The notes beneath the pieces are model-generated. The model was not told the origin of the DNA. It made no database searches and saw only the letters and a list, made by a program, of their open reading frames with translations. Positions 5,353-64,000 of a stretch of 64,000 bases of DNA are shown in pieces (within the stretch, counting starts at the first letter, position 1; every line of letters starts with the position of its first letter). A program made the position numbers and the translations under genes. This stretch comes from Bacteroidota bacterium. GTDB taxonomy: Bacteria > Bacteroidota > Bacteroidia > NS11-12g > UBA955. Where the stretch lies: contig SYIL01000021.1 in assembly GCA_005798825.1 (NCBI GenBank), positions 1 to 64,000 on the forward strand. Reading direction: 5' to 3'.

Positions 5353-5412
5353 TTTTTTAGAGTTTTATAATCAAACACAAAGGTAGTTCATGGTTTTGCA
5401 TATTTTTGCTAT

Positions 5413-59401: not shown

Positions 59402-59776
59402 ATGGCAAAAAAGATTCAAAGTTCATCTGTAGAAGCTTTGGTGGCTGTAATTGTTCACGGATTGCAAGAGAAGAAGGGGATAGACATTGTATCAATCGAT
59501 TTGCGGAAAATTCCCAATGCGTTTACCGATTTCTTTGTGATTTGTCATGGGGGTTCTGCCCGCCAAGTCGATGCTTTGGCAGACAGTGCTGAAGATGAAG
59601 TGAGAAAAGCGCTTCGCGAAAAGCCTGCATTCAGAGAGGGAAACGACGAGTCAGAGTGGGTTTTGCTGGATTATATCAATGTTGTGGTCCATATCTTCTC
59701 TGGAGATAAAAGAGATTTTTACCAATTGGAAGAGCTCTGGGGTGACGGAACCATAAGCAAGCATGATACGCAATAG
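59402..59776 (+). CDS. rsfS: Ribosomal silencing factor RsfS
   Basis: RsfS binds L14 of the large subunit and blocks subunit joining when nutrients are low. From ATG 59402 the protein has 124 residues: the body shows KKGIDIVSIDLRKIPNAFTD, FFVICHGGSARQVDALAD, and WVLLDYINVVVHIFSGDKRD followed by FYQLEELWGDG, all typical. The frame is open further upstream, but that part is antisense to birA and does not resemble RsfS. Confidence 0.95.
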   Translation: MAKKIQSSSVEALVAVIVHGLQEKKGIDIVSIDLRKIPNAFTDFFVICHGGSARQVDALADSAEDEVRKALREKPAFREGNDESEWVLLDYINVVVHIFSGDKRDFYQLEELWGDGTISKHDTQ

Positions 59777-59790
59777 TTTTTTGTTTTTCA

Positions 59791-59821
59791 TTTGATTGAG
59801 AGATTTTCTTTAGTATCTTCG
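59791..59821 (+). promoter_or_regulatory. Promoter of the tRNA-Glu / initiator-type tRNA unit
   Basis: TTTG at 59791-59794 is followed after 19 bases by TATCTTCG at 59814-59821, one mismatch from TAnnTTTG. The -7 box ends 13 bases before the tRNA-Glu gene, a fitting distance for a tRNA transcript. Confidence 0.6.
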
Positions 59822-59834
59822 CACCCCTTTAGAT

Positions 59835-59906
59835 GGCCCGTTCGTCTATCGGTTAGGACACGTCCCTTTCACGGATGAAAGAGGGGTTCGATTCCCCTAC
59901 GGGCTA
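59835..59906 (+). tRNA. tRNA-Glu (anticodon TTC)
   Basis: The sequence folds into a standard cloverleaf: acceptor GGCCCGT/ACGGGCT with discriminator A, anticodon arm CGTCC-CTTTCAC-GGATG giving TTC, and T arm GGGG-TTCGATT-CCCC. The first acceptor pair is G-U. CCA is not encoded. It lies 10 bases before the next tRNA gene. Confidence 0.95.
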
Positions 59907-59916
59907 CGAAATAAAT

Positions 59917-59988
59917 CGCGGGATGGAGCAGTGGTAGCTCGTCGGGCTCAGAACCCGAAGGTCACAGGTTCGAGTCCTGTTCCCGCTA
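59917..59988 (+). tRNA. Initiator-type tRNA (fMet-like) with anticodon CAG instead of CAT
   Basis: The 72-base gene has the marks of a bacterial initiator tRNA: an unpaired first position (C1 opposite T72), the three G-C pairs in the anticodon stem (TCGGG/CCCGA), an A37-A38 loop end, D stem GAGC/GCTC and discriminator A. The anticodon loop, however, reads CTCAGAA (59947-59953), where initiators have CTCATAA, so the anticodon is CAG and would pair with CUG. A true tRNA-Leu would have a long variable arm, which is missing here. It could be a functional variant, a decaying extra copy or a base-call error. CCA is not encoded. Confidence 0.85.
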
Positions 59989-59999
59989 CTAAAAGAGAA

Positions 60000-60032
60000 A
60001 AGTCGTCAGCAATGGCGACTTTTTTTGTTTTT
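60000..60032 (+). terminator. Terminator after the tRNA pair
   Basis: AAGTCGTC (60000-60007) pairs with GGCGACTT (60014-60021) around the loop AGCAAT, with one G-U pair, and is followed by a T-rich tract. It closes the tRNA-Glu/initiator-type tRNA transcript. Confidence 0.88.
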
Positions 60033-60223
60033 GGCTCACAAAATACGGTGCCTTCCAAAATAATGCGAATGGTACCCATTGTCTCGAGTAAAACTAAAAT
60101 CAGAGGGCGCTGCTGAATCGAATGTATGTGAGTTTGCAACAGTATGACAATCAGGATTTACCGCTATGAAAGTAAAGTAAGTATGAAAATAATCCGAAAA
60201 AAAAGGGTTTGAACGATTATCTA

Positions 60224-60988
60224 TCAATTGATTTCATACTCCAGGTTCACAGTAACACTCACTGTTTTTTCCTTAGCAGAGGTATTGAATGTACCACCCC
60301 ATTCATAACCATCACTCGAATTTTTACCGGTAATCTGAAAAACGCCCATACTTGATTTTGAGAGGTTTCCTTTGTTCGCACCGGCTTCTTGTAAAATAAG
60401 TTCACACCTTTTGCGCGAATCAAGTGCAGCTTTTTTTAACATTTCCAATTTCAAATCGGCCAATTTGGTATAATAATACGAGGGTGGATTAGAGCTTAAC
60501 TCAATACCTTGCTCAATTAATGTGGTTATAGACCGCGAAATATCTTCAACCTTATTAACCTCTCGCGATTCTACCGTTACCGATTGAGACAAGACAATAT
60601 TGCGAAAATTCTTTGAAATTATGTTGTCATTTTTATCATACACATTGTCATAAATACGCTCGATCCCGACCGATGAAAACTTAATATCTGCTTCTTTCAT
60701 GCCATTGCGAATCAAGTAATTTTTTATGGCATCCCTGTCTAATTGCAATTCGCGGTAGCCTTCCTTTAGGTCAAAATTGTTGCGCTGAAACCCTGCACTC
60801 CAAACAATTAAGTCACTCACAAAATCTTTCTCTGCTTTTCCAGTAACTTCAATCGTGGTTTTATTGGAATCACTGCGTTTACTTTTCACCCATGCATTGC
60901 CAAAAATACATGCTGCTACAACAATAGCCATTGAGATCGCTATGCTGCCAATACTTTTAAGAATAGATGATTTTGCGTCTTCTGACAT
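60224..60988 (-). CDS. SIMPL (DUF541) domain protein
   Basis: The 254-residue protein has one N-terminal membrane helix (SIGSIAISMAIVVAACIFGN) and a periplasmic SIMPL domain: TTIEVTGKAEKDFVSDLIVW, later LIEQGIELSSNPPSYYYTKL, KAALDSRKRCELILQEAGAN and the end TVSVTVNLEYEI. SIMPL proteins such as BP26 form periplasmic ring assemblies; their function is not clear. It is a single gene 30 bases upstream of the esterase-like gene's end, on the same strand. Confidence 0.9.
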   Translation of the reverse strand: MSEDAKSSILKSIGSIAISMAIVVAACIFGNAWVKSKRSDSNKTTIEVTGKAEKDFVSDLIVWSAGFQRNNFDLKEGYRELQLDRDAIKNYLIRNGMKEADIKFSSVGIERIYDNVYDKNDNIISKNFRNIVLSQSVTVESREVNKVEDISRSITTLIEQGIELSSNPPSYYYTKLADLKLEMLKKAALDSRKRCELILQEAGANKGNLSKSSMGVFQITGKNSSDGYEWGGTFNTSAKEKTVSVTVNLEYEIN

Positions 60989-61018
60989 GATCTTTATTTT
61001 ACCCGATGGATTACAATA

Positions 61019-62173
61019 TTACTTTTTTAATTCATCAAAAAAAAGCAATGCTTTCAGACCGGCTTCAGACCAAAAATTATAATCGTGTTTGCCTCGGTTA
61101 TAAAAAATCTGAAGCTCCCTGTAATATGTTTCTACGTGTTTGGTCTCGGCATTTATCGTATCTTTTTTATTTTGGCCAAGCGGTTCGTTTTTTTGTTTTT
61201 GAAAGGGTGATTTTTTTTTCAGTAAAGCGTTTGCAAATTGCTTTGTTTGCACAATGGGGACCACCAAATCGTTGCTTCCATGTGCTAAAAAACAAGGTAC
61301 TTTAAGTTCTTTAGCCCTTCGATAAATATTATTGCTTCCCCTCCAACGCGATTGAAATAGATTCATTGGACCCATACAATTGATCATCAAGTTGTCATTG
61401 GGCTGCAATTCAGGATTATAATCGCCACTCAATCCAGCACAACCCGAAAATGCCTCGGGATGTTCCAATGCCAATAGCAAGGAACCTCTCGCTCCTGTTG
61501 AGAGCCCCATAACAAATGTTGGCACAACAAAAAACCCTTGAAAGAATGGAGTGTTTATTGCGAAATTTTGGGGGTATAGTTGTTCTTTTTGTGATAATCC
61601 AGATGAAAAATACCCCCTTTTTTGAAGAGGCTTTAACACCGAATCCCAAAGCCAGTTTCGGGTTGGGTAGGCACGGTAGTCATTTCGCATTTGCGGGTAT
61701 AGGCTGTCCATATAGACACTTTTTCCCATCTCAACAAACAATAAGTCATATCCTTTATACAAGGCAACTGAGCAAACTTTGGTGGCAGAACACCATTGGG
61801 TATCAGGAAAATTCCAACCCGGCAAAAGCAAAAGCAATTTTTTATTTCCCCTATCAACAGTATTGTCTGAAACCCGGTAAGAAACCCGAATGGGCTTGTT
61901 GCGATAGTTTACCCAATACACGGTATCGTGCAGAAAAAAAGTTGATTCTCGCCCATGGTCTACAAGCAATTCTTTTGCTATTTGTTGGTTCTCGGCATCC
62001 AAGTCTGCAGAATCTTCCAAAGATTTGGCACTGGAATAGGGTATGTCTTTAGAGGCTCTTACTTCGCTTTCATCAGATGAATGGATGTTTGCCAAACAAG
62101 CATTACAGGCCACAAGTATGATTAAAATCATGCTTGAAATCCAATGCCTGAAAAACATACATAGGTTTTTCAT
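61019..62173 (-). CDS. Alpha/beta-hydrolase lipoprotein, esterase-like
   Basis: The 384-residue protein has a lipoprotein-type signal (core WISSMILIILVAC). The fold is alpha/beta-hydrolase: the oxyanion region LLLLLPGWNFPDTQWCSA, the nucleophile elbow MGLSTGARGSLLLALEHP with GxSxG, a likely acid residue in HGSNDLVVP, and a His in GKHDYNFW. It resembles esterase D or PHB depolymerase-like hydrolases; the substrate is unknown. It lies 21 bases downstream of era on the same strand. Confidence 0.82.
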   Translation of the reverse strand: MKNLCMFFRHWISSMILIILVACNACLANIHSSDESEVRASKDIPYSSAKSLEDSADLDAENQQIAKELLVDHGRESTFFLHDTVYWVNYRNKPIRVSYRVSDNTVDRGNKKLLLLLPGWNFPDTQWCSATKVCSVALYKGYDLLFVEMGKSVYMDSLYPQMRNDYRAYPTRNWLWDSVLKPLQKRGYFSSGLSQKEQLYPQNFAINTPFFQGFFVVPTFVMGLSTGARGSLLLALEHPEAFSGCAGLSGDYNPELQPNDNLMINCMGPMNLFQSRWRGSNNIYRRAKELKVPCFLAHGSNDLVVPIVQTKQFANALLKKKSPFQKQKNEPLGQNKKDTINAETKHVETYYRELQIFYNRGKHDYNFWSEAGLKALLFFDELKK

Positions 62174-62194
62174 AAAAGAGTGTATACTGTAAAT

Positions 62195-63088
62195 TTATTC
62201 GGCATCATACCCAAATTGATCTAACATTTTATTGTTATTACGCCAGTCTTCTCGAACCTTTACAAACAATTCTATAAATATTTTTTTCTGAAAAAAATGT
62301 TCTAACTCTTTGCGTGATTCAATGCCGAGTTTTTTGATTGCTTGTCCTCCCTTTCCAATAATAATGGGTTTTTGTGAATTTCGTTCGACAATGATTTCGC
62401 AACTCATTCTGATAATTTTGATGTCTTCTTTAAACAAAATAGTTACCACTTCAACAGCATATGGAACCTCTTCGTCGTATATCTTTAAGACATTGTTTCG
62501 CACAATTTCGTTGACAAAAAATCGCTCACTTTTGTCGGTTAATTGGTCTTCTGGGAAATACGCTGGATGGATGGGAAGTCCATCAACAATATACCGTTCC
62601 AATACGTCTAATTGAAACCCTTCCAGTGCCGAAATTGCAAGGTAAATATCACCGATAAAATTCTTCTTTAACCACACCAATTTTTCTTCCAGTTGCTGCT
62701 GATGACTTTTGTCTATCTTATTTAAGACCACAATTTTTTTCGCATTAGATTGTTCAAATTTCAATTTGATTTCTTCAGAAAAATCTTTGCCATTGATATC
62801 AATTAACACTATCAGCACGTCGCTATCGCTGACGCTTTCCTTCACGAATTTCATCATGCGCTCATGCATGCCATAACTGGTTTCCCTTAAAATGCCTGGG
62901 GTGTCAGAGAATACAATCTGAAAACCGACTCCATTTTTAATTCCGAACGAACGATGTCGGGTGGTTTGGGCTTTGGCGTTTACGATCGATAGATTCTCGC
63001 CCAAAAGAGCGTTGTAGAGTGTGCTTTTTCCGGCATTGGGCATGCCTATAATACTAACAAATCCAGATTTAAAGCCTAGTTCATTCAA
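62195..63088 (-). CDS. era: GTPase Era
   Basis: Era is an essential GTPase that helps 16S rRNA maturation and 30S assembly. The 297-residue protein has P-loop GMPNAGKSTLYN, the switch AQTTRHRSFG, DTPGI, NKID, and a C-terminal KH domain with IVERNSQKPIIIGKGGQAIK. Length is normal. It is followed by the esterase-like gene and preceded by the Blh-type gene, all on the minus strand. Confidence 0.96.
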   Translation of the reverse strand: MNELGFKSGFVSIIGMPNAGKSTLYNALLGENLSIVNAKAQTTRHRSFGIKNGVGFQIVFSDTPGILRETSYGMHERMMKFVKESVSDSDVLIVLIDINGKDFSEEIKLKFEQSNAKKIVVLNKIDKSHQQQLEEKLVWLKKNFIGDIYLAISALEGFQLDVLERYIVDGLPIHPAYFPEDQLTDKSERFFVNEIVRNNVLKIYDEEVPYAVEVVTILFKEDIKIIRMSCEIIVERNSQKPIIIGKGGQAIKKLGIESRKELEHFFQKKIFIELFVKVREDWRNNNKMLDQFGYDAE

Positions 63089-63148
63089 GCTTCAAAAATA
63101 CAATCATTTCTCATGAATTGACAAACAAATCGATGTTGGAGCAGAACA

Positions 63149-64000
63149 CTATTTGCGGTAAATTCCATCCATTACAACAACATGGGGCAATGAAACCAAT
63201 GACAACAATACAAACCCCAGACCCAAATGATTCATAACATCAAAAGAGGTGCATACCGCCATACCGAGCAATGCCAGCAGCCCTAGTGGTAAAAATCCCC
63301 GAATGATCGATCCAATCGAAGCCCTATCGCGCTGTTTGATATAAACAATTTGGTAGCGCATTGATTGTAATGCATGCCAATAACAAAATACCACTACAAA
63401 ACCCAATATCAGTGGGGTAAGCCAGTACCATACACTTACCATACCCCATTGAAACAAATATTGCCAACGGTAGGGGGTTTTTCTTAAAACCAATACCCAT
63501 GCGTAGATCAAGCCGAAGCAAATCGTAAAACCCAAGGTTTCAACGTCGGAATACGGCCCCTTGAAATCGATATTTGTAGCCGAGAAACCCAGCATTTCAG
63601 AGAAAATTGAAACCACCTCACTGGCATGCTTGACCATCGGAAACACAAGCAGCCACCCCCCCCACATCAATGATTCGGGTGCATTCCAACGCGAATTTTC
63701 GAAATTGGATTGTCCAAAATGATGCATTGATATCACCAAAAAAATCAACAAAGCCAACCAAGAAAACAACCACCAAATCGCCAAATAAAGAAGCATGCAA
63801 CCAGTGTAATATACCAAAAATCGAATGCTGCCCCCAAAAGATTTGTCGGGACGATAGTAAAAATCGTTGCCACCGTGAGGAATTCCCAATAATATTAGTC
63901 CGACAAGCGCCAGCACCAATAAAACTTTACTTTCTGCACCAAACAACACAACCAATACAATCATCGCTGCTTGAATAAAGCACTGCATCCAAAAAAACTG
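63149..64000 (-). CDS. blh: Brp/Blh-type beta-carotene 15,15'-dioxygenase, 5' end possibly beyond the window
   Basis: Blh cleaves beta-carotene to two retinals, the chromophore of rhodopsins. The protein has about seven or more helices and the family motifs LGIPHGGND (His near 38), ISMHHFGQSNF (His 89-90), FCYWHALQSMRYQ and the C-terminal LPHVVVMDGIYRK. The frame remains open from ATG 63988 to the window end, so the true start may lie outside; from that ATG it has 279 residues, near family length. Blh proteins usually show a second His four residues after the WH, where this one has Ser, so one iron ligand might differ (from memory). A run of eight G codes for the WGGW at 63656-63663. The rhodopsin at the left window edge fits this enzyme. 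Confidence 0.82.
   Translation of the reverse strand, partial: QFFWMQCFIQAAMIVLVVLFGAESKVLLVLALVGLILLGIPHGGNDFYYRPDKSFGGSIRFLVYYTGCMLLYLAIWWLFSWLALLIFLVISMHHFGQSNFENSRWNAPESLMWGGWLLVFPMVKHASEVVSIFSEMLGFSATNIDFKGPYSDVETLGFTICFGLIYAWVLVLRKTPYRWQYLFQWGMVSVWYWLTPLILGFVVVFCYWHALQSMRYQIVYIKQRDRASIGSIIRGFLPLGLLALLGMAVCTSFDVMNHLGLGFVLLSLVSLPHVVVMDGIYRK

Follow-up and report, generated by a model that had tools for sequence, protein, structure and literature searches.

The window analyzed here, that is, the whole stretch of 64,000 nucleotides, lies within contig 13, which is 77,152 bases long, of a 45-contig assembly totaling 1,926,889 bases and estimated to be 91.09% complete and 0.02% contaminated. 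The locus under study, which is internal to this contig and away from its ends, consists of a tRNA-Glu gene, an initiator-type tRNA gene with a CAG anticodon, and a terminator-like hairpin (Table 1). The studied genome is referred to as G000, and labels such as G003 denote genomes of relatives, of which G008 is the nearest, with 90.3% nucleotide identity over 43 ortholog pairs.

Table 1. Features of the tRNA locus in the window.
Feature	Positions	Strand	Basis
Initiator-type tRNA gene (ARAGORN: tRNA-Leu(CAG))	59917-59989	+	Sequence, ARAGORN, RF00005, 72/73 match to relatives
Anticodon C34 A35 G36, with G at 59951	59949-59951	+	T in 27/27 relative copies
tRNA-Glu(TTC), probably on the same transcript	59835-59907	+	ARAGORN, relatives' loci
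Intrinsic terminator-like hairpin, 14 pairs, T-rich 3' arm	59995-60026	+	Fold, consensus scan

ARAGORN finds a regular cloverleaf in the CAG tRNA gene and, from its anticodon, labels it as Leu; its RF00005 (Rfam) score is 66.3 bits, where the cut-off lies at 29. Free folding with ViennaRNA yields a minimum other than the cloverleaf, as is common among tRNAs; its z is -2.02, and 8 of 200 shuffled sequences fold equally well. With positions numbered by eye, the marks of an initiator can be read along its length: C1 stands opposite T72, so that 1-72 is not a Watson-Crick pair; G29-G31 of the anticodon stem pair with C39-C41; and the R11:Y24 feature is present, by eye, as A11:T24. The anticodon loop is C32 T33 C34 A35 G36 A37 A38, base 73 is A, and CCA is not encoded. 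The anticodon is CAG as assembled, where an initiator has CAU, and the variable loop has five bases, where a tRNA-Leu has the long variable arm of class II. The initiator core, with up to three mismatches allowed, matches once in the window, versus zero matches expected in shuffled windows. Direct sequence, ARAGORN and RF00005 therefore agree with the initial annotation, which had described an initiator-type tRNA with a CAG anticodon and had correctly placed its base 36 at position 59951.

The gap between the tRNA-Glu, which is intact as had been claimed, and the CAG tRNA is only nine bases, and cotranscription of the two genes is therefore likely. Among relatives, this spacing is 8-10 bases in nine of 29 loci, and 49, 73 and 218 bases in three others. 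The hairpin that follows (-16.7 kcal/mol, z -5.67) bears out the strong terminator that had been proposed. The good promoter proposed at the same time was not recovered, as a sigma-70 consensus scan of 59700-60100, which leaves other promoter types outside its reach, found no plus-strand promoter upstream of either tRNA. The anticodon arm of the tRNA-Glu, CGTCC CTTTCAC GGATG with one G-T pair, is shared with G008 and G017 and differs from the CCAGG TTTTCAT CCTGG of the congeners G003, G005 and G006.

We then compared the same locus among relatives, as the initial annotation had proposed. The tRNA-Glu-initiator stretch, or part of it, was found in 36 of the 39 genomes searched (G000 included), and loci were retrieved for 29 of the 35 matching relatives and read on both strands. 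Twenty-six of these loci, from as many different genomes, hold a whole initiator, and its anticodon is CAT in all 26; the loci from G005, G006 and G008 extend to the tRNA-Glu only. Base-by-base comparison of these 29 loci and two further stretches provided 27 readable copies from 26 genomes, all with T at base 36, the remaining four of the 31 having tRNA-Glu only or half of the initiator gene. One such half copy, in G009, starts with ATAACCC, which places T at base 36 there too. Twelve of the 27 copies, from 11 genomes, differ from the CAG gene at base 36 alone across the 73 bases, and the gene therefore shows no other damage; the initiator differences of other lineages are mostly paired stem changes. 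Within the genus, the initiator core is present in eight of 15 genomes, with T in all seven apart from G000, and each of these seven congeners has one initiator locus, since the two contigs of G003 cover the same place. As judged from these alignments, it is well supported that this pair, tRNA-Glu plus initiator, is the place where the genus ordinarily carries its initiator (tRNA-fMet).

Base 36 could not be read in the nearest relative, which lacks an initiator after its tRNA-Glu. Unrelated DNA stands there in G008 (L118, G008:C34:1-12000), with open reading frames that look in sequence like a SulP-type transporter and a carbonic anhydrase, and neither a match to the 59990-64000 stretch (40 of 57 candidates scored) nor a close match to era was found in this genome. 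A different arrangement is seen in G016 (L055, G016:C49), where partial initiator repeats flank a complete gene: ahead of it lie 39 bases from the 5' half, and part of the 3' end of the initiator is repeated together with the terminator after it.

Departures from T at base 36 are rare well beyond the genus. A non-T 15-base core occurs in one of the 108 genomes of the order, counted with or without a T core, and that genome is G000. In a phylum sample of 395 genomes, 141 of which hold the 24-base core with any base, G000 is the sole non-T case among the matches listed. An exact 24-base core scan of 84,980 species genomes, covering contigs of 3,000 bases or longer, returned four non-T stretches, two of them fragments and two of them tRNAs, one mismatched in its 3' half and the other in its acceptor stem. 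The fragments (L087, positions 75-98, and L088, positions 5375-5398) start at the anticodon arm, carry CAC, are not called as tRNAs by ARAGORN, and come from genomes with a CAT core elsewhere; they may be remnants of attachment sites or recombination. The other two are called by ARAGORN: L085 has CAG and, by eye, the mismatched 3' half, and L086 (3029-3105), from a Clostridia metagenome bin, is initiator-like with CAC and, by eye, one mismatch in the acceptor stem. Searched with the 15-base pattern, the L085 and L086 genomes yielded the variant only, although a canonical gene that departs slightly from the pattern could escape such a search. Sporadic consensus errors would be enough to account for a rarity of this order.

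Given the identity of the locus, the single-base difference, T in the relatives' copies and the ATG starts described below, the reading that we favor, and consider somewhat better than an even prospect, is that of an ordinary genus tRNA-fMet locus whose working anticodon is CAU, the G at 59951 being a wrong or minority consensus base. The working anticodon of the organism at this locus would most likely be CAU, and the G would most likely have entered through a consensus error in short-read metagenome data or through a minority base; we infer that it is absent from the working copy in the living genome. This is favored, first, because the change is a single one, at a near-invariant site of an otherwise untouched gene, with a rarity that fits sporadic errors. 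Second, it is favored because of four signs in the assemblies themselves. Exact overlaps at contig starts are a mark of short-read k-mer assembly, and two contigs of G000 start with an exact overlap of 141 bases. The contigs of three congeners (G005, G006 and G009) break inside the initiator tRNA. The tRNA-Leu(CAA) of G000 (L021, G000:C34:14279-14362) has G at position 8, which is near-universally U in tRNAs and is T in G008, the only genome compared at this gene. Finally, contig 1 ends in a tRNA-Ala(GGC)-like gene (L022, G000:C1:39171-39229) that goes uncalled by ARAGORN and that follows its G008 counterpart in the 5' half and departs from it in the 3' half, as would be seen if assembly had fused two tRNAs.

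As for the remaining tRNAs, 12 of G000 could be paired with G008 by isoacceptor and length, of which nine are identical, one has a single difference, the tRNA-Leu(CAA) has two and the elongator Met has 11; seven of the 19 distinct G000 tRNAs are without a G008 partner of the same isoacceptor and length. Against the error reading stand three observations: the locus is internal to its contig, the genomes of L085 and L086 yielded only a non-T core, and there is no excess of T>G changes on the G000 lineage. With G013 as the outgroup, 42 genes (17,182 codons) gave 56 G000-specific and 70 G008-specific T>G changes, and 77 and 86 A>C changes, respectively; G>A (287 versus 186) and C>T (299 versus 228) are higher on the G000 lineage, which has no bearing on T>G. 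A systematic T>G error is rejected on these counts, a test that a sporadic error rate of about 1e-4 would escape, and therefore an error, if that is what the G is, would be sporadic only.

The second explanation is that the G is real, a recent U36>G mutation tolerated by virtue of a CAU initiator that was left unassembled or unbinned, so that the CAG tRNA would be transcribed, poorly charged, and a dead or nearly dead allele. We regard this as a tentative alternative, clearly less probable than the favored reading and still to be taken seriously. It requires a second initiator, and the search of the rest of the genome for a canonical CAT gene, which had been suggested at the outset, found none in the 91%-complete assembly by RF00005, by the DNA of the locus or by the core pattern (up to two mismatches). 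RF00005 gave 24 matches in G000, 21 of them over the cut-off, one of these partial and Ala-like in appearance, and the two CAT tRNAs among them (C27 and C41) represent one elongator-Met-like gene doubled by the 141-base contig overlap.

Nevertheless, the lack of a second initiator is weak evidence for a sole copy, because ARAGORN, run at the RF00005 matches, called no Ala, Gly, Ile, Asp, Phe, Tyr, Trp, Thr or Pro tRNA, and because seven of the 15 genus assemblies are without the initiator core. Among these is G008, estimated to be 100% complete and with 28 tRNA matches (23 loci were run through ARAGORN, and the other five lie within those). Moreover, two initiator matches of nearly full length are seen in each of G025, G027 and G038, so second copies do occur in the order, at a greater distance than the genus. 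The anticodon of tRNA-fMet is also read by MetRS (PMC9976931), which would fit an allele that has stopped working. On the other side, the congeners with a core have the single locus mentioned above, and the gene has accumulated no further change. The initial annotation had named CAT at the same locus in relatives, together with the lack of a second initiator gene, as grounds against its reading, and this is in substance what was found (26 of 26 relatives whose initiator was read whole, no second initiator), with the reservation that the assembly is incomplete. Of the options it had listed, a sequence error and a relic copy are both favored by the evidence.

Far behind these two comes a non-canonical initiator that works in the cell. 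It would be either a dedicated CUG initiator or a relaxed one, still starting at AUG by way of a mismatch at the first codon position, where ordinary initiators also accept GUG and UUG. We consider this very improbable, although the tRNA keeps its hallmarks and has a terminator 3' of the gene, no CAT initiator was found in the assembly, and initiators with altered anticodons can begin translation at the codon they match in engineered E. coli (PMC8576571). The start codons argue otherwise. Of the 55 genes of the contig, 43 could be paired with a G008 ortholog and 12 had no G008 partner. Within 40 codons, the first start-type column that contains ATG has ATG in G000 and G008 alike in 33 of the 43 pairs; the other ten have no such column, and in none of the 43 does CTG in G000 stand against ATG in G008. 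For reference, of the 471 aligned ATG codons of G008, 404 are ATG and seven CTG in G000. This shows a genome built for AUG initiation, in which a sole CUG initiator would leave no matching starts. Since starts would have had no time to move after a very recent switch, the data show this much only. With CAT in all 26 relatives whose initiator was read whole and CTG in place of ATG in none of the 43 pairs, the dedicated CUG initiator that had been offered as an option is not sustained.

Charging is a second obstacle for a working CAG initiator. According to a review (PMC9976931), recognition of tRNA-fMet by MetRS needs specific anticodon contacts, in agreement with the earlier view that MetRS reads CAU and that charging here is doubtful. 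The same source states that leucylation in E. coli is independent of the anticodon and of the long variable arm and requires A73, and that a selection experiment identified A15-U48, G18G19 and A20a as essential. The CAG tRNA has A73 and G18G19, with G15-C48 in place of A15-U48 and no A20a. Because of its anticodon, its G15-C48 and its lack of A20a, neither Met nor Leu charging is predicted from these elements; the claim that LeuRS largely ignores the anticodon holds, whereas leucylation of this particular tRNA would not follow from it. In addition, G000 has an ordinary elongator tRNA-Leu(CAG) at another locus, and a new anticodon is not the sole route to CUG starts, since a tRNA-fMet mutant in which a stem pair is altered is reported to discriminate less against CUG in vitro (PMC11497404). 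That the G is real and the tRNA the cell's only initiator, charged and starting at AUG by first-position mismatch or partially shifted to CUG, is to our mind the least probable outcome considered here.

An assembly chimera, in which the G of another genome's initiator-like sequence was joined at the conserved tRNA, is likewise highly improbable: joins are possible in a tRNA that is 72/73 identical across 11 genomes, and both the congener contig breaks and the misjoined tRNA-Ala-like gene point to such events, but the flanks on both sides are syntenic with G012 and G013, and no relative that could have donated the G was found among the 108 genomes of the order or in viral contigs. Two further origins were rejected, namely, conversion of the 3' half by integration at an attachment site, given the downstream synteny with G012 and G013 and no second copy of the half-gene, and a phage origin, since viral contigs gave zero exact matches to the non-T core and zero to the spacer of the locus. 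The ranking is thus a consensus error or minority base first, and a real, non-working allele second.

A single base of a metagenome bin can therefore imitate a non-canonical initiator. Initiator anticodons could be used as a quality check on such bins, because base 36 was other than T in only four stretches of the 84,980-species scan with the 24-base core.

With respect to known systems, no natural CAG initiator is reported in the titles or abstract beginnings among the matches listed from the open-licence PMC literature. Engineered anticodon-changed initiators are designed, and are used in cells that keep their normal initiator. The tRNA of the window has in common with them, for instance with the CUA-anticodon initiator that starts at UAG in engineered E. 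coli (PMC8576571), an initiator body and a non-CAU anticodon, whereas nothing shows a function for it. With the elongator tRNA-Leu(CAG) it shares the letters of the anticodon and A73, and it differs from it in its short variable loop, its 1-72 mismatch, its G-C stack, its G15-C48 and its lack of A20a. Its closest counterpart is the bacterial tRNA-fMet (CAU) of the C1 x U72 type found in its relatives, with 72 of 73 bases the same in 11 of them and the same place after tRNA-Glu, base 36 being G and not T. The CAG reading is therefore most probably a single erroneous base or an inactive allele of this familiar gene, and not a new start-codon system.
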